Shown here: positions 1 to 12,161 of the stretch, one piece after another
Numbering within the stretch: position 1 is the first letter of the stretch
Layout: the number at the start of each line of letters is the position of its first letter
Source of the DNA: Accumulibacter sp.
Lineage (GTDB): Bacteria > Pseudomonadota > Gammaproteobacteria > Burkholderiales > Rhodocyclaceae
Assembly: GCF_023806635.1 (NCBI RefSeq)
Contig: NZ_JAMTDQ010000108.1
Location: 1-53,292, forward strand
DNA: 53,292 bases
Reading direction: 5' to 3'
Position numbers and translations under genes: made by a program
Notes under the pieces: model-generated
Database searches by the model: none
What the model was told of the DNA's origin: nothing
What the model saw: only the letters and a program-made list of their open reading frames with translations

Positions 1-1214
1 GTCATCTGGTCGCCTTGCACCGTCCGCGACCGAAGGCGGAAGCCTACCTGCGGCTACGCACGCTGCCGGGCGAACAGGCCCAAGTCGATTGGGCGCACTT
101 CGGCCATCTGGAAATCGGCCGCGCCCGCCGGGCCCTGATGGCGTTCGTGATGGTACTGGCGTGGTCGCGCATGATCTACCTGCGCTTCTTCCTCGATGCG
201 CGCATGGAGAACTTTCTGCGCGGCCATGTCGGCGCGTTTGGCGCCTGGGGGGGCCTACCGAGAGTGCTGCTGTACGACAATCTGAAGAGCGCCGTCCTCG
301 AGCGACAAGGGCAGGCGATCCGCTTCAATCCCACCTTGCTGCAGTTCGCCGGTCATTATCGCTACGAGCCTCGCCCGGTGGCGATCGCGCGGGGGAATGA
401 GAAGGGGCGCGTGGAAAGGGCCATTCGCTATGCGCGCGAAGCCTTCTTCGCCGGTCGCAGCTTCCTGGATCTGGCGGGCCTCAATGCGCAGGCCGAGGCC
501 TGGTGTACGGGAGAAGCGGCGGACCGGCGTTGCCCCGAGGACCCTGCGCTGAGTGTACGCGAAGCCTTCGCGCTGGAAGCGGCTCATCTGCTGGCGTTGC
601 CGGACCATCCGTATCCGACCGATGAGCAGGTGGCGGTGAAGGTCGGCAAGACGCCCTATGTGCGCTTCGACCTGAATGACTATTCGGTGCCTCCGGAGCA
701 GGTGCAGCAGACGCTGACGGTGGTCGCCGACCCACTGCGGGTGCGTATCGTCGATGGCCAGACGGTGCTGGCGACACACCGGCGCAGCTACGACCGGGGG
801 CAGTGCATCGAGGAGCCGGCGCATCTCGCGACCCTGGTCGAGCAGAAGCACCAGGCCAGTTTGCACCGGGGGACCGACCGGCTGACCCGGGCGGTGCCGG
901 AGAGCCGGGAGTTGCTCGTCCAGGCGGCCGGCCGGGGGGCGAATCTGGGGGCAATCACGGCGGCGCTGCTGCGTTTGCTCGATCGCTATGGGGCGAGCGA
1001 GTTGCAGGCAGGCATCGAGGAGGCTCTGGCCCGTCAGGTGCCGCACCCGAACGCGGTGCGCCTGGCACTGGAGCGTCGGCGCGAGACCACCGACCGGCCG
1101 CCACCGGTCGAGATCTCCTTGCCCGAGCACCTGCAGCGCCGCGATACGCCCGTCCGGCCGCATCGGCTGGAACCCTACGACCGACTGACGGAGGCGAGCG
1201 ATGATCCCGAGTGA
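1..1214 (+). CDS. istA: IS21 transposase IstA, 3' part
   Basis: DDE transposase of an IS21-family element, which cuts and joins the element ends with IstB as ATP-dependent helper. The frame is open from the first base; about 400 residues are visible, so roughly the first 100 of a usual ~500-residue IstA are missing. The integrase core starts with [10 protein letters not shown] (first catalytic Asp in a QVDW context), continues through [11 protein letters not shown] (second Asp) and an [12 protein letters not shown] segment that carries the third acidic residue. The C-terminal part is the usual variable IstA tail. The stop codon overlaps the start of istB by 14 nt, the normal arrangement in this family. 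No frameshift is visible, so the element may still be active. Confidence 0.93.
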
Positions 1215-1962
1215 GGCCTTGCGCAAACGGGCACAAGCCTTGAATCTGCATGGCTTGCTGGCCCATTGGTCGGAGCTGGCCGAGTGCGCCTGGGTCGAGC
1301 CCTTGCTGACCTGGGAGGAGACCGAACGGGCCCGGCGCAGTCTGGAGCGCCGTCTGGCCGATGCGCACATCGGCCGCTTCAAGCCGCTCGCGGATTTCGA
1401 TTGGGACTGGCCCCAGCAGTGCGATCGGACCGCGATCAGCGAGTTGATGAGCCTGGAGTTCCTGAAGAGCGCGAGCAATGCCATTCTGGTCGGGGCAAGT
1501 GGGCTGGGCAAGTCGACGATCGCCCGCAACATCGCGCACCGGGCCGTCCTGTCGGGGCATACGGTGTTGTTTGCCACCGCCGGTCAGCTCCTCGGCGATC
1601 TGGCAGCGATCGACAGCGATTCGGCTCTGCGCCGGCGATTGCGTCACTATGCGGCGCCGGCGCTGCTGGTGATCGACGAGGTCGGCTATCTGTCGTATTC
1701 GAACCGCCACGCCGATCTGCTCTTCGAGCTGATCAACCGTCGCCACGAGTGCCGCAGCACGCTGATCACGACCAACCGTTCGTTCTCCGAGTGGCCGGAG
1801 GTCTTCCCCAATGCAGCCTGTACTGTCGCCCTGATCGATCGTCTCGTTCATCACGCCGAGATCGTCGCCATCAAGGGGGAATCCTATCGGCGCAAGGAGG
1901 CGCAGGAACGCACCGAGCAGCGAGCCCGGAAACGCCGATCCGCAGCCGGGGCTGCCACATGA
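1201..1962 (+). CDS. istB: IS21 helper ATPase IstB
   Basis: 253-residue AAA+ ATPase that assists IstA in target selection and strand transfer. Walker A is GASGLGKST near residues 98-106, Walker B is [10 protein letters not shown] near 155-164, and the sensor-like [15 protein letters not shown] follows near 195. Length and motif spacing are standard for IstB. The start overlaps the istA end by 14 nt in another frame, so the two are probably translationally coupled. The stop overlaps the start of a small downstream ORF (ATGA, 1959-1962). It appears intact. Confidence 0.95.
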
Positions 1963-2201
1963 AGCCTTATCACCTGCCTTCCGGGCTGGGCGGTGGGCTC
2001 GATTTCCTGATCTGTGCCGACTGGACCCCGGAGCAGGCGCTGGCCGTCGTCGAACTGCTCGAAGATCTGCGTGACCGCATCTGGGCTCACTACGAGTTGG
2101 CGCTCTTCGACTTGCTGCGACAGGAACGCGACGGTCCGCGCGAACCACTTCCTGGCGACCACAGCACAGCCGACCACTGGCCTGACGAACCCCCGTTCTG
2201 A
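1959..2201 (+). CDS. Small third ORF of the IS21 element, unknown function
   Basis: 80-residue acidic protein beginning [16 protein letters not shown] and ending in DEPPF. Its ATG overlaps the istB stop by 4 nt (ATGA), and a strong terminator follows 23 nt after its stop, so it is transcribed with istAB as a passenger of the element. A helical centre (residues about 20-52, QALAVVELLEDLRDRIW) is the only clear structure; no catalytic motif is visible. I do not recognise a family. The tight coupling and the position before the terminator argue for a real gene. Confidence 0.6.
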   Translation: MKPYHLPSGLGGGLDFLICADWTPEQALAVVELLEDLRDRIWAHYELALFDLLRQERDGPREPLPGDHSTADHWPDEPPF

Positions 2202-2215
2202 ACATCGTCGATCGC

Positions 2216-3268
2216 TCAGACTTCAAGGGGCCTCCGTCGGCCCCTTTTTATGTCGACTCCACCACTCAACCATTCTCCGCCATCTTTGCGCGCCAGATAT
2301 CCGCGCTTCTTCGCAGCCACTAACATGAACTGACATACAGGGCAAGTTACCTTCCCGTTTCTTACCGTACCAGGCCCGAATTCTGAGACCGGGAGCGCAG
2401 TGCGCACATCGACGGCTATTGAACGGTCCTTGACTATTAGCTTTACTCCGACCCCTCGGCGGCGAGAAATCAGTGTCTGATTCATCAGTGGTATTACCGC
2501 CCCACATCCAGGCCCTTCGCATTGAATAGTCCTTGCCCATAGGTATGCAATCGGTTTAGCTCCATCTGGGTCAGCCGGGTAGAACTCTGCGCACTTCTTA
2601 GTCGCCTCTTGCTTTAACCACGTCCCCCATTTATTGGCCTCATCGGCCAGGCGCTGCCCAAACTTCGGGATGTATTCCAGCACCACCTTATTCAGTAACA
2701 CCGGGATTGGATTCAGATCGCTGGCGAAAGCATCGGCCCCTACACGCAGAGCCTCCAAGGGTAGCGATCCTCCTCCAGCAAACGGATCAAGCACCAACGG
2801 TCGGGTACCGGGAACGCCGCCGAGCGACTCATGGGCGACCTGTGTCAGCCCGCGACTGGTGGCAAGGTAAGTGCTGTCCCTCGAGTTGTCCCAGTTCGAG
2901 AAATCCGCGATGAAGTCGAGCAAGGCGCCGCGTAGCTCCACCGGGTCATCGAACAGCGCCGGGTTCTTGCGTGCGCCGTCGAACCGGCGCCGACTTTCCG
3001 GGGAGAGCAGGATTTGCTGCTCGTGCGTCGTCCATGCCTGCATCGCCTGCCGCGCGGCATTGAGAAAGTCGACCGGGCAAGCGGGGTCGGCGGGGTCGGG
3101 CCAGAGGGATGCGAGGATGACTGCCCGGCATGCGGCCAGCGGGCGGCGTGCCCACCAGATGTGCAGGGTCGAGATGTGCCCGTGGCGGATGCCTTTCTCG
3201 CGCCGTGCATGCGCGGAAATCCGCTTGATCGGGAGATCCACCTCGATGAGGCGTTTCGGATAGTTCAT
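2216..3268 (-). pseudogene. DUF1156-type adenine-specific DNA methyltransferase, truncated by IS21
   Basis: N-terminal about 335 residues of a DUF1156 DNA methyltransferase; full proteins of this family are about 900-1000 residues. Hallmarks are the N-terminal NYPKRLIEVDLPI and the HIWWARRPLAACRAVIL segment (DUF1156), then the SAM-binding motif LDPFAGGGSLPLEALR near residues 164-179 and a zinc-ribbon-like TCPVC near 310. Homology stops at about LARKDGG; the last ~20 residues (to a stop at 2216) are read from IS21 DNA. The catalytic (D/N)PPY motif, which in this family lies further downstream, is therefore missing here. I chose the ATG at 3268 because it overlaps the upstream TOPRIM-like gene by 4 nt (ATGA); a start 9 nt earlier is possible. 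The rest of the gene may lie beyond the left end of the IS, outside the window. The role was probably self-DNA modification for the linked helicase system. Confidence 0.85.
2225..2249 (+). terminator. Rho-independent terminator of the IS21 operon
   Basis: Perfect 8-bp stem AAGGGGCC/GGCCCCTT (2225-2232 and 2239-2246) with the 6-nt loop TCCGTC, followed by a T run to 2249. It lies 23 nt after the third IS ORF. It would end istAB transcription and also protect the IS from read-out into the broken methyltransferase gene. Confidence 0.8.
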
Positions 3269-3852
3269 GCGCGCCATCCCTTGAAGACGGCGCGCATCTC
3301 CTCAACAAAGCGCCCCAGCGACGCGTCGGTTCCCGCCACGCGGGATAGATCCATCGCATTCACGATGTCGTCGGCAAACTCGATTCCGCCAAGACTGGGC
3401 ACAATGCCACTGGCCCGAATGGCGTCTATCAGCACTTTCTTGTAGCGCGCGCGCTCGCATTTCGTGTCCGGCGCATCGCAGCCGCGACCGAAAAGCGCCT
3501 TGAAGGCCGCCGAGTCCGCCAGCAGCCAGCGCTCGATATGCGGATCGGGCACGGCACATACAGTCGGGACAGCAATCTTTCCGGTCTCGGCGTTGATCTG
3601 GCGCAGACGTTCCACCAAGCCTCTGCAATTGGCATCGGTGGCAACCACTAGCAAATCCGGCAGGTTGTCACGCCCGCGCATCAGGTCCCGCAAGAAGTGC
3701 TTGAGCTCAGTCACGACCGCACCATGTCCACGGCGCGCGTTGCGCCAGTCCATGTGAACCTGGATGCCAGACTCCGCAGCCAGCCGTTGCAGCAATGCGG
3801 CAAGAAACTCCTTGTGAGCCTGGTCCTCGACAAAGAGCGCGATGTCACGCAT
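3265..3852 (-). CDS. TOPRIM-like small protein paired with AAA ATPase
   Basis: 195-residue protein starting MRDIALFVEDQ. The arrangement of an N-terminal strand with Glu9 (FVEDQ), then a hydrophobic strand ending in VVATDANCRG (Asp73, Asn75), fits a TOPRIM fold like those encoded next to OLD-like or RloA/AriA-type ATPases. The second acidic position would be Asn rather than Asp (DxN). The motif calls are mine and no fold prediction was run. The start at 3852 was chosen because it overlaps the ATPase gene by 8 nt (ATGCGTGA); the frame is open further upstream but that part has no homology-like character and lies inside the ATPase gene. In an OLD-like pair this subunit would be the nuclease or effector arm. 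The nearest families by style are the RloB/DUF4435/DUF4276 class, but I cannot choose between them. Confidence 0.65.
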   Translation of the reverse strand: MRDIALFVEDQAHKEFLAALLQRLAAESGIQVHMDWRNARRGHGAVVTELKHFLRDLMRGRDNLPDLLVVATDANCRGLVERLRQINAETGKIAVPTVCAVPDPHIERWLLADSAAFKALFGRGCDAPDTKCERARYKKVLIDAIRASGIVPSLGGIEFADDIVNAMDLSRVAGTDASLGRFVEEMRAVFKGWRA

Positions 3853-5158
3853 CGAAATCTCCCCGCAGCATTCGCTCGGAGACGGTGAGTTCATCCTCGT
3901 TCTCATCCATGAGCGCCTGGTCGACGTCGCCTCGCTTTGCCAACGCCCCCCAGGCCGCAAAGGGCTCGATCCGCGTTTCGCCATCGACGCGCTTGCAGGC
4001 AAACAGCGATTCCTCTTCCACCAGATCAGGCAATAGTGGCGAATGCGTTGTCACGATGTATTGGGTTTCTCCGAACGACGCCCGGGTTTTGAGCAGTTCG
4101 GCCACCAACTGGATGCGGCGCGGATGGATGCCGTTCTCGGGTTCCTCGAAACCGATCAACGATGGCTGTTCTTGCGCACCTGCCAGCGACAAAAGCCCAA
4201 GGATGCGCAATGTGCCTTCAGACAGGATGCGCGCAGGTACCGAAATGCCGTGCTCCCTCAGCTTGAGTTCGACCTCGCCGAGCTTGCTGACATCCACATC
4301 GATACCTTGCACGTTGGGCATGAGGGTACGCATGGCTTTTTCCACGGCCGTGAATTGGCGCGGATCGAGCGCCTTCAACGTGTTGAGGAAGGAGGCCAGT
4401 TCTTCGCCCATCTGTCCGATGTGTCGAACCTCCTTGACCGGATTGGAGGTGCGCATGCGCTCACGCGGTTCGAAGTAAAAAAACAACCAGCTTTCCAACT
4501 CCTTGCGCATCGCGACCAGATGCGGGTAATGCGGGGGGTAGTGCGGCAGGGAGAGAATGCTGTGATCCAGATGGCGTTCGTAATAAGTCGGGTGCGCCTG
4601 GCCCTCAAGGCGCAGGTGCAGTCGATTACCTTCGCGCGACAGGAAGGGTCTGCGCTTGCCGATCGGCTCGCCCTTGTCCGTCAATGCGGCGAGATATTCG
4701 TCCGCAACGCGGAGCACCCCTGACTTCGGTCTCATTTCAATCTCGATTCGGTAACGCAGGTTTCTTGCCTTGACGGCAGCGATGGTCCTGGCTGAGATGC
4801 CATCCGCTTCGAGTTCTCCTGAACGGCGCATTTCCCAGATCTGACGATTGACGGCATCGACGACGGCATTGGAAAGCCGTACGTCGACCTCGATGGAAAA
4901 TGACAGGCTATCCTTCTCCAGCAAGCCTTCGATGCCTTTTTCTCCGAATGAGAATGATTCGAGCGGCTTGCCACGGTAAGGGGGAGCGAACGCCTCCTTG
5001 ATCGTTCTTTCCGTCGTAAGCTTCGACAATAATTGCAGACAGTCGAGGAAGTTGCTTTTTCCCGCTGCATTGGGGCCGAAAAGAATCGACAGGTCGGCGA
5101 GTCGAAGGTCGAGGTGCTTCAGCGACTTGTAGCCATCGATCTTGACGCGTGTCAGCAT
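3845..5158 (-). CDS. AAA ATPase, OLD/RloA-like (ABC-type ATPase head)
   Basis: 437-residue ATPase. Walker A is FGPNAAGKSNF (residues about 27-37), preceded by the typical KIDGYKSLKHLDLRL start. The ABC signature-like segment is LSEGTLRILGLLSL (about 324-337), Walker B is LIGFEEPENGIHP (about 346-358) and the H-loop is TTHSPLLPDL (about 379-388). A poorly conserved helical insert lies between residues 90 and 300. This is the SMC/Rad50-like AAA_21 architecture found in many defence ATPases (OLD, RloA, AriA). Translation starts 1 nt after the helicase stop, and the end overlaps the TOPRIM-like gene by 8 nt, so ATPase and TOPRIM protein are probably made in fixed ratio and form a complex. No frameshift is visible. 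Confidence 0.88.
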   Translation of the reverse strand: MLTRVKIDGYKSLKHLDLRLADLSILFGPNAAGKSNFLDCLQLLSKLTTERTIKEAFAPPYRGKPLESFSFGEKGIEGLLEKDSLSFSIEVDVRLSNAVVDAVNRQIWEMRRSGELEADGISARTIAAVKARNLRYRIEIEMRPKSGVLRVADEYLAALTDKGEPIGKRRPFLSREGNRLHLRLEGQAHPTYYERHLDHSILSLPHYPPHYPHLVAMRKELESWLFFYFEPRERMRTSNPVKEVRHIGQMGEELASFLNTLKALDPRQFTAVEKAMRTLMPNVQGIDVDVSKLGEVELKLREHGISVPARILSEGTLRILGLLSLAGAQEQPSLIGFEEPENGIHPRRIQLVAELLKTRASFGETQYIVTTHSPLLPDLVEEESLFACKRVDGETRIEPFAAWGALAKRGDVDQALMDENEDELTVSERMLRGDFDA

Positions 5159-5159
5159 G

Positions 5160-8100
5160 TCATTTCACCTCGTTCGGATTGACAATGTATTCAGCCCGGT
5201 CCTGGTTGAGTTCGACTGGCGATCGGATCGAACTGACGTTCAGCCTGTAATGGTCGACCTTCACCACCGGCTGCCATTCCAATGTCGCCGGGTTGCGCAG
5301 AATGTTAATGTTGGGCGTCTCGGCTGCGCAGTGGAACACAACATACAACCAGTAATCGTTGGCGAGACGCTGGGCGGTGCGGTATTCATTGGACGTCAGG
5401 GCCACCTCGCCGGCATGGGCGCGTCCCTTGACCTCGATGAAACGCACATCGATGGCAGTCTTCGGGTCTTCCGGATGTGGCATGCGCGAGATCAGGTCGA
5501 ACCCGCGATTGTCGGCCTCGACGCTCTCGACGACGCGGCCTTGCGCCTCCTCGTGGGCGATCACCGCCTTGACGGCGATCCGCTCGATTTCCGGGTCGCT
5601 GACCATGGGCGCGATGCCGGGCGCGGTTCGTTCGGGGTGTGGCAACACCCACACGCGGCCGATGTGCTGGATGTCGCCAACCGAACACTGCTTTTCCTGC
5701 TCCAGTTCGCCACGCCGGCGTTGCAGGCGGTGGTCGAGTTCCAGCAGCTTGTCCTCGGAAATCCTGATGCGCCCGTCCAGACCGGATTCCTGACTGCCGG
5801 ATTCCCTCTGCTCGATGAGTCCGGCCTGGATGCGTTGCTCGCGGTCGATGATGGTGTTGAGCGAGAGTTCGATGTGGCGGGAAATCGTAGCGGTCTCGCG
5901 GGCGCGCTCTTTCTGCACTTCGTCGAGCAACGGATTCAGCGCGCGCTCCAGCAGTGTCATTTCGAGCTGGGTGCGGCCTGGCAAGGCATCGTCGGCGGGG
6001 ACAGCCTGCGGCCTGGTACTGGCGGTCAGGTCGAGGAACAGGGTGGGCTGCTTGATGGCCAGGTTGCCATCCGTGCCGGTCTGGACCACGAACAGGCGCT
6101 TGTGGAGGGTATTGCCCCGGCCATCACGGATCGAGGCGCTGAACACGTCCAGCCGATACGGTTGCGCGCTGTGCAGGTCGAAGAACACCGTGCCCCGCTT
6201 GAGGTGGTCCTGCACCTGCGTGAGCACTTCGTCGCGCACCGTTTCAAAGAGGGGATGGCCGGGAGTCACCCACTCCAGGGTGGCATCCTGCTTGAGCAGT
6301 TCCTTGTCGAAAACAATGTTGCCGTATTCGCGGCCAAGCTTGCCGAATCGGGATTCAAGGCGTTCGCCCGTCGGCCAGAGGTTGCGCGGCACGCGACCGA
6401 CCTTGTAGGTGCGGGCTCCGGCCTTGACGGGCTTCGCAGCGATCCCGGTCACGCCGGCCGAGCCGAGGAAGAAGTCCTCGATCACTTCCGGCACCAGGCG
6501 GCGTTCCTTGGCTTCGGCTGACTTGCCGACGATGGCCGAAAGGTTCAACTCGCGTTTTGCGAGGCCTTCCAGGGTTGAGTTGGTGATGTTCTCGAAGCGG
6601 GAGCGGTCGACCTGCTCGATGATGCGCGCCTTGATGAGATCCTCGGTCATCTGGTTCTGCGCGTACATGTCGCGCAACATCTTTTCGAGCTGGTTGGCCG
6701 GGAAGACGTCGCCCAGGACATTGAAGATCTTGCCGGTGCGCTTGGGATCGAGGTCGTCCTGGATGGCTTCGATCCGCTCAAAGAGCTTTTGCAGCACACG
6801 GCCCTCGCGGGTGTTGCTGCTGACAAAATTGAAGATCAGGCAATCCTTTTCCTGGCCGTAGCGGTGGATGCGGCCCATGCGCTGTTCCAGCCGCACCGGG
6901 TTCCAGGGGATGTCGTAGTTGATCATCAGCCAGCAGAATTGCAGGTTGATGCCCTCGCCGGCAGCCTCGGTGGCGACCAGCACCTGGGCGGATTCGCGGA
7001 ATTCGCGCTCGGCAAAAATGCGGGTGCCCGGCGTGTCACGATCGCCGATCTTCATGCCGCCGTGAATCTGCGTCAGCGTCAGCCCCCACTCGCGCAGCTT
7101 GCCGAGAGGGCGTCCGTCGTGGCCGTCGCCAGCAAGGAAGCCCAGGGTGTCCTTGTGCTCGGTGAAGATGAGCAGCTTCATTTTCGGGTCGGCGAATACC
7201 CCCTGTTGCTTCAGCAGTTCCTTGAGGGATACGAGCTTGGTCTCGATCTCCTTCTTTTCGAGATCGCGCGCCTGGTTGATGAGCTTGGTCAGCTCGGCGA
7301 TTTCCTCGCGCAGGGCGGCAGGGTCGATGTTGGCGACCGCATCCTCCAGCCGGGCGATGATTTCCTGCTGCTCCTCGTCGGACAAGTCCTCGAAATCATC
7401 CGGCAGCTTCTTGTTCATCAGTTCGCGGCGGTAGCCCTCGGGATCCTTCAGGATGCGCTCGCGCTTGTCGCGCATGCGCTCCAGGCTGCGCCGCACCGCG
7501 TACAGGCTCGATGCAAAGCGGCGCTGGAGCATGGCCATGGTGAATGCCAATGCCCGGCCGCGCGCGGAGTCGTCCTGCGCCGCCTTGACGGATTGATCCT
7601 CTACGTATGTGGTCAGCTGGTGATAGAAGTCGTATTCCTCGTCGGAGATCTTGAATTCCGAGGTAGTGACGATGCGCTGGGTGAACAGTGCTTTGACGTG
7701 TCCGGTTTCCGGTGCCGGGAACGTGACCAGCGCTTCCTTGACGCGCCTGAGGTAAAACGGCGCTTCGTGACGTGCCATGGCTTCTTCGAGGCTGCTGATG
7801 TCGCCGTAGACGTCACGATCAAGCAGCTCGAGGAAGAGGCAGAAATTCTCCGGATCGCCCTTGTGCGGGGTCGCGGTCATCAGCAGGTAGTGGTCGGTCA
7901 TTTCCGACAGAGCCTCGCCCAGCTGATAGGCGAGGGTTTTCTTGTCGCTGCTGTAGGCCGACATCTTGTGGGCCTCATCGACGATGATCAGATCCCAGCG
8001 ACTACGCAGAAGGCTGCCCTTCGCATCCTCGATCCGCGATACCCAGGACACCGACGTGACGACCTGATCCTTTTCCTGCCACGGGTTGGAACCGTAGTTG

Positions 8101-8657
8101 GCGCGCAGGACATCGCTGCGAATGACCTCGAAGCTCTCGCGGAACTTGTCCTTCATTTCGCGTTGCCACTGGAATGTCAGGTTGGCGGGGGTGATGATCA
8201 ATACGCGCTTGACCAGGCCGCGTATCTTCAATTCCTTGATCAACAGGCCAGCCATGATCGTCTTGCCGGCGCCCGGGTCATCGGCCAGCAGGAAACGGAT
8301 ACGTGGCAGTTTCAGGAAATAGTCGTAAACCGCTTCGAGTTGATGCGGGAGCGGGTCAACACGGGCGATCGACAAAGAAAAATACGGGTCGTATTCATAG
8401 GCCAGTCCGAGGCGCATGGCTTCGATACCGAGCCGGAACTTGCCGGCGTCGCCGTCGAACGGTTCCTGCGCCGGCGATGCGGTCAGCAATGCGAGTTGAT
8501 CCGCTGTGAGAATGGGCTGAAAGACCGTGTTGGATCGAATGCCGCGCGCCGCCAGCTTGACGGCGTTCCCCATGGGCATCAGGGTGAGAATCTCGACAGG
8601 CTCGGGAAACAGCGCGCCGCTGACCGTGATATTGGGCTTGAGTTCTTCGGCCAGCAT
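5160..8657 (-). CDS. SNF2/DEAH-type helicase with C-terminal DUF3883 domain
   Basis: 1165-residue superfamily 2 helicase. Motif I is LADDPGAGKTIMAG (GAGKT at 129-133), motif II is IIVDEAHKMS (DEAH 227-230) and motif III is LLMTATPHKG. The second RecA lobe has LLIFTEHKDTLGFL, then LVATEAAGEGINLQ and QRMGRIHRYGQEKD (motifs V and VI). A long coiled coil rich in Glu/Lys (about 395-475) sits between the lobes. The C-terminal ~120 residues contain DVRFIEVKGRA and NEYRTAQRLANDYWLYVV, the DUF3883 ('NO VEIN' C-terminal) signature, a suspected PD-(D/E)xK-like nuclease fold. This architecture resembles the DrmD-type helicase of DISARM and other restriction-linked translocases. It overlaps the upstream HTH gene by 1 nt (TGATG). 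Likely role: DNA translocation or remodelling of invading DNA. Intact. Confidence 0.9.
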   Translation of the reverse strand: MLAEELKPNITVSGALFPEPVEILTLMPMGNAVKLAARGIRSNTVFQPILTADQLALLTASPAQEPFDGDAGKFRLGIEAMRLGLAYEYDPYFSLSIARVDPLPHQLEAVYDYFLKLPRIRFLLADDPGAGKTIMAGLLIKELKIRGLVKRVLIITPANLTFQWQREMKDKFRESFEVIRSDVLRANYGSNPWQEKDQVVTSVSWVSRIEDAKGSLLRSRWDLIIVDEAHKMSAYSSDKKTLAYQLGEALSEMTDHYLLMTATPHKGDPENFCLFLELLDRDVYGDISSLEEAMARHEAPFYLRRVKEALVTFPAPETGHVKALFTQRIVTTSEFKISDEEYDFYHQLTTYVEDQSVKAAQDDSARGRALAFTMAMLQRRFASSLYAVRRSLERMRDKRERILKDPEGYRRELMNKKLPDDFEDLSDEEQQEIIARLEDAVANIDPAALREEIAELTKLINQARDLEKKEIETKLVSLKELLKQQGVFADPKMKLLIFTEHKDTLGFLAGDGHDGRPLGKLREWGLTLTQIHGGMKIGDRDTPGTRIFAEREFRESAQVLVATEAAGEGINLQFCWLMINYDIPWNPVRLEQRMGRIHRYGQEKDCLIFNFVSSNTREGRVLQKLFERIEAIQDDLDPKRTGKIFNVLGDVFPANQLEKMLRDMYAQNQMTEDLIKARIIEQVDRSRFENITNSTLEGLAKRELNLSAIVGKSAEAKERRLVPEVIEDFFLGSAGVTGIAAKPVKAGARTYKVGRVPRNLWPTGERLESRFGKLGREYGNIVFDKELLKQDATLEWVTPGHPLFETVRDEVLTQVQDHLKRGTVFFDLHSAQPYRLDVFSASIRDGRGNTLHKRLFVVQTGTDGNLAIKQPTLFLDLTASTRPQAVPADDALPGRTQLEMTLLERALNPLLDEVQKERARETATISRHIELSLNTIIDREQRIQAGLIEQRESGSQESGLDGRIRISEDKLLELDHRLQRRRGELEQEKQCSVGDIQHIGRVWVLPHPERTAPGIAPMVSDPEIERIAVKAVIAHEEAQGRVVESVEADNRGFDLISRMPHPEDPKTAIDVRFIEVKGRAHAGEVALTSNEYRTAQRLANDYWLYVVFHCAAETPNINILRNPATLEWQPVVKVDHYRLNVSSIRSPVELNQDRAEYIVNPNEVK

Positions 8658-8863
8658 CAGTGTTCTTTGTTGGCGGTGGATCTACCCGCGACCTGGGAAC
8701 GGATCCAGGCCTCGATGTCGGACTTGGTGAATCGCCACGCCCCGCCGACCTTGAATGCAGGGACTTTCTTGGATGCAGCGAGCCGATAAAGGGTGCGCTC
8801 GGCCACCTTGAGGTAGTTAGCGGCCTCCGGGAGGGTCATGATTTCAGGTTGTGGCCTGGCCAT
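8657..8863 (-). CDS. Excisionase/MerR-like HTH DNA-binding protein
   Basis: 68-residue protein with one winged-helix excisionase-type fold: LPEAANYLKVAERTLYRLAA (residues 11-30), then KKVPAFKVGGAWRFTKSDI (32-50), the standard wing and 'sequence after HTH' pattern. It is the first gene of the helicase-ATPase-TOPRIM-methyltransferase operon and its TGA overlaps the helicase ATG by 1 nt. Such small proteins commonly head defence cassettes and are thought to regulate them; binding to the palindrome at 8901-8910 is my inference. The start at 8863 gives the natural family length; an ATG at 8839 is an alternative. The frame is open for 42 further codons upstream without family resemblance. Confidence 0.82.
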   Translation of the reverse strand: MARPQPEIMTLPEAANYLKVAERTLYRLAASKKVPAFKVGGAWRFTKSDIEAWIRSQVAGRSTANKEH

Positions 8864-8938: not shown

Positions 8939-9755
8939 CCCAACCCAGGAATATGTTGCGACCGGAACGCACTGACCTACGCCGGGCACACCCTATGGAA
9001 CCGCCATGCCGAGCGCGAGGGTGGTGGCTATATCGGCGGTACCAAGATGCGGCCTCGTACCGAATGGGCAATTCAGCTTGATACGCATGAGGCGTTGATT
9101 TTCGACGACGAGGCCGAATCCATCCTGGCAGCTGTTGACACCGGCAAACGCAGAGCAGGCAAACCGAACGCCCGTATCTATCTGCTCTCCGGCATCCTGA
9201 CCGCGCCTGATGGCGTCATGTGGAACGGTGATAGCGGCTTCTATCGAATCCCCAAGGGTCCGCGGACTGCGGCCGAGTCGGTCGACCGTGCCGATGTCGA
9301 GCAGGTGGTTGCGAGGTTCTCCAGCGGCGAACTCGCTCAGGAAATTGCCGACTACTACCGGAAGCTGTCTGAACCCGCCAAGGACGCTGGGCGCGAAGTT
9401 GCCACGATGCGCCGGAGGATTGTCGATATAGAGAAACGCATCGGCAGGCTGACGATGCTGCTGTCGGAGACATCTGCGCCCGAGGCCCTGTTGCGACAGA
9501 TCGAGGCCTTGGAGGCCGAGCGTGAGACGGCGATCGAATCGATGAATGGACTGACTTCAGACGCAACAATGGCACGAGCCATGAGGGCTGTTGGCGTTCA
9601 GGACGTCAAACGGATGTTGGCTGGTCTGGCGGAAGACTTGAATCCAGCGCCCGGAATCGCTCCGGGACACGCTACGTCAAGTCTCGAACGGGGTCATACT
9701 CGACCCAAAAACATTTGGTGCGTCAATCACTTACCGCATCGACCCCGGTATAAGA
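8939..9755 (+). pseudogene. Serine recombinase remnant (C-terminal part, frameshifted)
   Basis: A plus-strand frame reads NALTYAGHTLWNRHAERE, then GGGYIGGTKMRPRTEWAI, HEALI, YLLSGIL and a Glu/Arg-rich coiled coil. This is the recombinase and zinc-ribbon region of a large serine recombinase. The N-terminal catalytic resolvase domain (Ser nucleophile) is absent. Between about 9640 and 9665 the frame shifts by one: the family-like C-terminus (GVILDPKTFGASITYRI, about 9690-9745) is read in the next frame. The gene is thus doubly dead. It ends about 15 nt from the CCA end of tRNA-Glu, which makes it a likely relic of the integrase that brought in the island. Confidence 0.8.
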
Positions 9756-9767
9756 GCGGGTTCAGGC

Positions 9768-9843
9768 TGGCGTCCCCACGGGGATTCGAACCCCGGTACC
9801 TACCGTGAAAGGGTAGTGTCCTGGGCCTCTAGACGATGGGGAC
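9768..9843 (-). tRNA. tRNA-Glu (TTC)
   Basis: 76-nt tRNA with encoded CCA. The acceptor stem GTCCCCA pairs with TGGGGAC, the anticodon loop reads CTTTCAC (anticodon TTC), and the T arm is GGGGTTCGAATCCCC. It lies 20 nt after tRNA-Ala on the same strand and shares its promoter. Its 3' end borders the recombinase remnant, so it may be the island attachment site. Confidence 0.97.
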
Positions 9844-9863
9844 CCGGAACCTCTTTCGGCTTG

Positions 9864-9939
<76 letters not shown>

Positions 9940-10566: not shown

Positions 10567-11988
10567 TCACGCCGCCGCATCGGTCGCCGGGCTCGCCAGG
10601 CGACCGGCACGCGCCAGCCGTTCGAGGGCGGTGGCGCGCGGAAAGAGCGCGATCAGCGCGTCGACCGAAGGCGTCTGCTCGAGGCCGGTCAGGAGGACGC
10701 GCACCGGCATCGCCAGCTTCGGCATCTTGAGACCGTGGCGGGCGACGCACTCCTTGATCAGCGCGGCGATTGCCGCCGCCTGCCAGGGCACTTCGCCGAG
10801 CCGGGCGGCGAAGTCGTCGAGCAGCGGCAGCGTCTCGGGCGTCAGGTGGCGGGCCAGCAGTTCGCTCCTCGGCTGCAGGTCGATATAGAACGGCTCGGCG
10901 ACATCGGCCAGTTCGTTGAGGTTGCCGACGCGATCCCTGTGCAGCTCGATGATCGCCGCCAGCGACGGCGTCTCGCCGACGACGACGTCGCGCGCTGCCA
11001 GCCGCGGGCGAACCAGGTCAGCCAGCCGGCCGGCGTCGCAGCGGCGCAGGTAATGCGCGTTCAGCCAGTTGAGTTTCTCGCTGTTGAACTGGGCTGCCGA
11101 CGGGGTGATGTGGTCGAGATCGAACCACTCACAGAACTGCTGCAGCGAGAAGATCTCGTCGTCGCCGTGCGACCAGCCGAGACGGGCGAGGTAGTTGAGC
11201 ACCGCCTCGGGCAGGTAGCCCGCATCGTCGTACTGCATGACACTCACCGCGCCATGGCGTTTCGACAGTTTCTGCCCGTCGTCGCCGAGGATCATCGACA
11301 GGTGGGCGTAGAGCGGCACCTGGGCACCGAGCGCCTGCAGGATGTTGATCTGCCGCGGCGTGTTGTTGACGTGGTCGTCGCCGCGGATGACGTGCGTGAT
11401 GCCCATGTCCCAGTCATCGACGACGACGCAGAAGTTGTAGGTCGGCGAACCGTCGGCGCGGGCGATCACCAGGTCGTCGAGCTCGCTGTTGGCGAATTCG
11501 ATGCGGCCCTTGACGAGGTCTTCCCAGGCGACGACGCCGTCCGCCGGATTGCGGAAACGGACCACCGGCTCGATCCCGGCCGGCGGCGCCGGCAGGTGCT
11601 TGTCCGGCTGGGGCCGCCAGCGGCCGTCGTAGCGCGGCTTGCGGCCCTGTTCGCGCTGCTCGGCGCGCAGGCGGTCGAGTTCGTCGGGCTGCATGTAGCA
11701 ATGGTAGGCGGTACCGGCGGCGAGCATCTCGGCGATCACCTCGCGATAACGCGGCATGCGCTGCGTCTGGTAGAACGGGCCCTCATCGTGCGCGAGGCCA
11801 AGCCAGCGCATGCCGTCGAAAATCGCCTGCACGGCCTCGGGGGTCGAGCGGGCGAGATCGGTGTCCTCGACGCGCAGGATGAAGCGGCCACCGTGGCGCC
11901 GCGCGTAGGCCCACGAAAAGAGCGCGGTGCGCGCACCGCCGACGTGCAGGAAACCGGTTGGCGAGGGAGCAAAGCGGGTGCGGATCAT
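10567..11988 (-). CDS. gltX: Glutamyl-tRNA synthetase
   Basis: 473-residue class I aminoacyl-tRNA synthetase that charges tRNA-Glu with glutamate in the cytoplasm. The HIGH motif appears as HVGG (residues 15-18) in the N-terminal [17 protein letters not shown]. The KMSKS loop appears as KLSKR (about 243-247). The C-terminal helical anticodon-binding region follows. Length and start are standard ([12 protein letters not shown]). The two downstream tRNAs, one of them tRNA-Glu, lie on the same strand about 600 nt away with their own promoter. A minus-strand TAGAAT at 12018-12023 could be the -10 element, with a poor -35. This is the discriminating-type length; a nondiscriminating role cannot be excluded from sequence alone. 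Confidence 0.97.
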
Positions 11989-12161
11989 GATCGCCGGTCG
12001 CAGTAGGTAAAGCGTTCATTCTAGTTGAAGCGCGGTCCCGACGGGCTGCGCCATCGCCATCGCCGCGTCGCCGCACCCGCCGCCGGCCATGGTTGCCAGT
12101 CGCCACAGTCGGCAACCGCCGCCGTCTTTCCGCCGGCGCCGGCATGGCGTATCCTTGGCCG

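Follow-up and report, generated by a model that had tools for sequence, protein, structure and literature searches.

The window analysed here, a stretch of 53,292 nt that constitutes the entire contig C108 of an Accumulibacter sp. genome (NZ_JAMTDQ010000108.1), carries an operon which is very probably a degraded Hma system, DUF499-centred and of the Type-1 BREX-related kind, with a HEC-01-type pair of genes, encoding an ATPase and a DUF4276 protein, nested between hmaA and hmaB. Open reading frames and profile searches of the window proteins (Pfam, PADLOC and NCBIfam, with curated cut-offs) place five consecutive genes on the minus strand, with junctions of 1-13 nt (Table 1). The Pfam families across the five are HTH_17; SNF2, Helicase_C and NOV_C; AAA_21; DUF4276; and DUF1156, and the profile scores are far above chance (for HmaA, E 4e-196). 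A first-pass annotation, made from the letters alone, had described five near-abutting or overlapping genes on one strand as a defence operon, in which a restriction-like translocase/methyltransferase pair accompanies an OLD/RloA-like ATPase and its TOPRIM-like companion, and the profile matches agree with both descriptions. Its further proposal, that the combination was unlike any known, did not hold, as the order matches a named arrangement, Hma with embedded HEC-01; nor are DISARM and PARIS, in which it saw parts of the set, the best matches. The odd gene mix is explained as one defence module nested inside another.

The HmaA and HmaB matches in the window, together with an HmaC (DUF499) gene elsewhere in the genome, on contig C25, identify the core as Hma, alias Type-1 'BREX-related'. 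Hma (helicase, methylase, ATPase) was named by Payne 2021, where a passage calls HmaB an m5C enzyme (PMC8565338). Sections of PMC12839542 redescribe it as DUF499-centred BREX-related with an N6 methyltransferase, name an RRM-type C-terminus for the Type-1 DUF499 protein, and report that OLD ATPases linked to TOPRIM occur embedded in BREX-related systems as auxiliary effectors. HEC is spelled out as 'Hma-embedded candidates' in a passage of PMC12988326, and the nesting of such pairs in Hma has therefore already been named; moreover, 'Septu in Hma systems' is cited as nesting in part of PMC12255303. The Hma and HEC-01 model matches, the HEC naming and the published Septu nesting thus place the combination in a known category. 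The operon shares with Hma the HmaA, HmaB and HmaC genes, a DUF1156 methyltransferase, a DUF499 ATPase and a helicase with a C-terminal nuclease-type domain, but here HmaA is divergent, hmaB is interrupted and hmaC lies on another contig. With HEC-01 it shares an ATPase and a DUF4276-like partner embedded in Hma, although the small partner scores weakly and carries a variant motif. In this otherwise ordinary case, the points of note are the docking slot of the pair and a likeness to MADS genes 1, 3 and 4.

Table 1. The operon and the adjoining insertion element in the window.
Feature	Position	Strand	Best profile evidence
HTH_17/excisionase-like regulator, MAD1-like, 68 aa	8657..8863	-	Pfam HTH_17 66.5 bits, 2.5e-18
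hmaA: SNF2 helicase/translocase, C-terminal NOV_C (DUF3883) putative PD-(D/E)XK nuclease, 1165 aa	5160..8657	-	PADLOC HmaA 652 bits
HEC-01A-like OLD-family ABC ATPase, 437 aa	3845..5158	-	PADLOC HEC-01A 192 bits; AAA_21 98 bits
HEC-01B-like DUF4276 protein, TOPRIM-like, 195 aa	3265..3852	-	Pfam DUF4276 35.3 bits; HEC-01B 25 bits
hmaB 5' part: DUF1156 and start of N6-adenine methyltransferase, ~314 aa, truncated	2326..3268	-	HmaB 150 bits; DUF1156 80 bits
IS21-family element inserted in hmaB; istA 15-1214, istB 1201-1962	1..2325	+	IstB_IS21 192 bits; Mu-transpos_C_2 86 bits

Among PADLOC models the helicase is matched best by HmaA (652 bits, over profile positions 4-1160 of 1176), followed by DrmD (421 bits) and BrxH (349 bits). 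Elsewhere, nine full-length HmaA proteins score 1593-2239 bits and four more matches 514-563 bits; compared with the nine, the window protein therefore belongs to a divergent part of the family. NOV_C at its C-terminus (69 bits in Pfam) is presumably a PD-(D/E)XK nuclease fold. The DEAH stretch at 227-230 and residues D1054, E1075 and K1077 are invariant in 38/38 aligned rows, and K132 is kept in 37/38, the one other row being gapped there. Membership of DISARM, with which the SNF2 helicase is shared, was rejected, given the lower PADLOC score of DrmD and an NCBIfam DrmD score of 359 bits under a cut-off of 610. The helix-turn-helix (HTH) gene, which meets hmaA at 8657 in TGATG, is no fixed Hma gene: an HTH near the hmaA start was matched at E <= 1 in 4/38 loci, one of them weakly (E 0.25).

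The DUF1156 methyltransferase gene of the first-pass annotation is present, but as its first ~314 residues alone, cut at 2325 by the IS21 element. All five of its genes were found, but the system extends beyond the window, with HmaC and an HmaB C-terminus on C25. HmaB is the best PADLOC model for the window piece, which corresponds to residues 4-320 of a 996-aa homologue in Tepidimonas fonticaldi (locus L022), where the complete HmaB scores 429 bits. The terminal sequence of the IS21 element, ending at 2325, recurs on contigs C75, C88 and C24, and, since the window is the whole contig, the contig starts inside the element. A search of the assembly contigs with the HmaB profile found further pieces on C25, C83 and C67. 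On C25, the C-terminal part of an hmaB shares 80% identity with the L022 protein over residues 724-996, and positions 1720-4533 encode a DUF499 protein of 937 residues (HmaC 415 bits, E 1.6e-124, profile 1-912 of 941; DUF499 58 bits). The first 55 bases of C25 are a repeat common to contig C23. We infer that C25 holds the remainder of the operon; the A-B-C order, which in this genome would span a contig break, is seen in L022 and in a second relative, L023. Residues ~321-723 of hmaB, including DPPY (549 in L022), were not found in the draft assembly, which may miss a small contig, and a query with this missing middle matched nothing beyond the start of C25 and the two remaining methyltransferases. 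As assembled, hmaB is broken, or at least incomplete for want of assembly, and because it lacks its catalytic middle the Hma core in this strain is probably inactive. The nested ATPase/DUF4276 pair looks intact.

Between hmaB and hmaC, C25:958-1690 holds UPF0175 and DUF3368 genes, a toxin-antitoxin-like insert with no tblastn match in L022 or L023. Contigs C67 (L018) and C83 (L017) carry two more systems with a DUF1156-type methyltransferase, DUF3780 and DUF499, C67 having a PLD-helicase as well; their gene content is fitting for the Type-2 BREX-related system, for which PMC12839542 gives, in part, a DUF3780 section and an HKD domain on the helicase. With the DUF499 genes of C25, C67 and C83, the genome has at least three DUF499 proteins.

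HEC-01A is the best PADLOC match for the ATPase (E 4.5e-57), and the stretches GPNxxGKSN, SEGTLR, GFEEPENG and TTHS are conserved in at least 95% of 80 aligned rows. A PDB sequence search with the ATPase returned weak matches only, to OLD, PtuA, AriA and retron ATPases and to ABC transporters. The partner exceeds the Pfam cut-off for DUF4276 (30.2 bits); its own match to HEC-01B in PADLOC is weak (E 2.8e-6), and 38/40 members of the DUF4276 family alignment match a HEC-01B model at E <= 0.01. The predicted structure of the protein has a pLDDT of 93, and Foldseek gave no match to this model at E <= 0.001. The invariant motif of the DUF4276 group is D-x-N, where that of TOPRIM is D-x-D. 'DUF4276' by name was not found in the literature searched. 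PARIS also has an OLD ATPase and a TOPRIM-type partner, but membership was dropped, as AriA scored 98.6 bits on the window ATPase against 192 for HEC-01A, and AriB had no PADLOC match on the DUF4276 protein at E <= 0.01.

The relationship of the pair to its host operon was followed in the best 80 of 126 ATPase relatives, with flanking DNA of up to 10 kb per side, frequently shorter near the end of a contig. In 8/80 loci (L022, L023, L029, L035, L038, L039, L044 and L061) the pair is flanked by both hmaA and hmaB, a partial Hma core lies on one side in 3/80 (L052, L074 and L081), and short Hma remnants lie beside it in 5/80 (L024, L030, L058, L092 and L093). No Hma gene or remnant was found in the available flanks of the other 64, among which weak helicase matches 2.3-8 kb off in L031, L055, L060 and L075 were not counted. 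The first-pass expectation that the two pairs would co-occur as one system is thus contradicted, the ATPase and DUF4276 genes being mostly without the helicase and methyltransferase. L022, with the order HTH-hmaA-ATPase-DUF4276-hmaB-DUF499, is an uninterrupted relative of the window operon and has the pair in the same position, and L023 has two extra genes ahead of the ATPase, Schlafen-type and ParA-type. In L058, a 45-residue stretch resembling the DUF499 C-terminus follows DUF4276 at 11908-12042 and is likely an Hma remnant. In L025, the DUF4276 stop overlaps a frame (2762-3249) beginning MRPYPSYKDSGVPWLG, a start which we take to resemble that of HsdS; Pfam gave no family for this frame.

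On a tree of 81 ATPase sequences with nine strictly embedded rows labelled, the embedding label requires 6 changes, at least 4 of them forced by well-supported branches. Shuffled labels required 8.7 changes on average and only 2/500 shuffles were as low as the observed 6, so that the label is also clustered on the tree. When the one-sided and remnant loci were added (16 rows, L058 left out), there were 8 changes, at least 6 of them forced. Monophyly of the nine embedded ATPases, as expected from a single origin, was rejected (p-AU 8.5e-8). The remnants in L024, L030, L092, L093 and L058 suggest that loss of Hma may account for some of the label changes. Identities of core and cassette conflict as well: L022 and L029 share 74% in the ATPase and only 33% in HmaA, 36% in HmaB and 29% in DUF499, whereas for L029 and L061 the values are 67%, 51%, 63% and 49%. 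The phylogeny and these conflicting identities show that the pair moves independently of the Hma core.

The site that the pair occupies is also used by other modules. From 34 + 18 match rows, 32 HmaA-anchored stretches were chosen, leaving out the strain's own genome, duplicates, split genes, contig-end fragments, helicase-only partials and second locus-less matches per genome, and hmaA and hmaB were located by tblastn in 30 of the 32. One or more frames of 150+ residues on the same strand, which are no proof of genes, lie at the hmaA-hmaB junction in 22/30 operons and at the hmaB-hmaC (DUF499) junction in 8/25; by a gap of > 300 nt alone, the counts are 25/30 and 13/25. Several stretches are closely related to one another, so that these counts are not independent events. 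The hmaA-hmaB cargo includes Septu (both PtuA and PtuB in L164 and L182, the ATPase in L166), Schlafen-type proteins (L162, L163, L175 and L180), NYN (L171 and L186), PIN (L170 and L175), an AAA and DUF3226 pair (L188) and an AAA and RloB pair (L181). The window ATPase and DUF4276 protein had no tblastn match at E <= 1e-5 in any of the 32 stretches. The hmaA|hmaB junction is thereby pointed to as a frequent docking site. Defence modules nested between the core genes of another system are also described for DarTG2, in a passage of PMC12255303 that gives the hsdS-hsdR junction of type I restriction-modification (RM) as a potential recombination hotspot, and for TgvAB (PMC11411939), but there the host operons are type I RM and the cargo is different.

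Most likely, the Hma core acts in the manner of a restriction-modification system, a mode proposed for such cores in part of PMC12839542. HmaC, a DUF499 AAA+ ATPase, and HmaB would together scan DNA and label it as self through N6-adenine methylation, and on unmethylated DNA HmaA would translocate and cut with the PD-(D/E)XK-like domain at its C-terminus. For the nested pair, the most likely mode of action is that of other OLD ATPase/nuclease pairs: the ATPase would restrain the TOPRIM-like DUF4276 nuclease until a phage trigger releases or activates it, and the two would form an abortive or backup layer of their own. The pair would then be a portable cassette that docks at hmaA|hmaB, a site taken in other operons by Septu, Schlafen-type, NYN, PIN or RloB-type modules.

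A rather unlikely alternative is that the pair guards its host: it would sense phage inhibition of Hma, much as PARIS responds to the anti-restriction protein Ocr, and would thereupon trigger the DUF4276 nuclease. Repeated docking at a restriction/modification junction argues for such a role, which the docking site makes testable, as do the PARIS logic set out in a section of PMC12839542 and the parallel order hsdR-rloA-rloB-hsdS-hsdM, read from locus tags, in C. jejuni M1 (a portion of PMC2928727). RloA-RloB are likewise two slightly overlapping genes between a restriction gene and the hsdS/hsdM genes, but their host operon is type I RM and the partner here is DUF4276, not RloB. Most pair copies, however, have no Hma nearby, and housekeeping genes are numerous among the neighbours scanned.

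A wider form of the idea, which we regard as unlikely, is that HTH, OLD ATPase and DUF4276 constitute a portable guard trio, the same as MAD1/MAD3/MAD4, that would dock at the restriction-modification junction in methylation-based systems unrelated to one another (Hma, MADS and perhaps type I RM), firing a TOPRIM-type nuclease once the host system is disabled. The window HTH and ATPase match the MAD1 and MAD3 models, and mad4 is matched by 10/40 DUF4276 members, in a comparison that covered MAD1, MAD3 and MAD4 among the MADS genes. Membership of MADS itself was dropped, both proteins falling below the NCBIfam cut-offs (MAD1 79.0 bits vs 80; MAD3 160 vs 420). These matches suggest that MADS may carry a HEC-01-like pair.

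It is decidedly improbable that the ATPase and DUF4276 are mainly a conserved cellular pair, unconnected with defence and present in Hma operons by chance. Of 20 proteins scanned, 19 lie near Hma-less pairs, and many of the 19 are products of housekeeping genes, including gyrB/gyrA-type genes, SelA, PheT and aspartokinase, and the archaeal OLD-family ATPase Cran1 is reported, in part of PMC12796447, as apparently not antiviral. Gene neighbourhoods of the pair are shared between loci within Poribacteria (L085, L087-L089, L095-L098 and L101) and within Caldilineaceae (L043, L045, L049, L050, L055, L062, L064, L066, L067 and L075), and this suggests vertical inheritance within each group. In a KSB1 genome (L037, 8029-14720), the pair lies between gyrB/parE-type and gyrA/parC-type genes. 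Such a cellular role is opposed by the patchy occurrence near the window, the ATPase being found at E <= 1e-80 in 1/300 genomes of the window's order, its own, by the repeated embedding in Hma operons and by the HEC-01 model matches.

The first-pass view of a new integrated five-gene system, with the pair indispensable to the helicase/methyltransferase machinery, draws on the tight junctions along the whole unit and on the ATGA overlap of the DUF4276 stop with the hmaB start in the window, L022, L023, L029 and L039, but is very hard to maintain against the lack of any match to the pair in the 32 HmaA-anchored stretches, its 64/80 copies without Hma in the available flanks and the conflicting identities. 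Within the pair, the ATPase and DUF4276 genes overlap by 8 nt in the window, ATGCGTGA, and by exactly 8 nt in 58/67 loci where DUF4276 could be placed. The helicase ends at 5160 and the ATPase starts at 5158, in TGACATG, and the DUF1156 gene starts at 3268, with the 4-nt ATGA overlap, or at an upstream ATG at 3277, with a 13-nt overlap.

The island context claimed for the operon stands in part: IS21 is confirmed, but the recombinase relic, perhaps the frame at 9047-9808 (+), matched no family in Pfam or NCBIfam, and an attachment site was not found. The 3' end of the tRNA-Glu adjoining the operon recurs on contig C42, where it is part of a complete second tRNA-Glu and is therefore no evidence of such a site. 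This second tRNA-Glu (C42:79-154) follows an apparent tRNA-Ala end, like the pair at 9768-9939 in the window.

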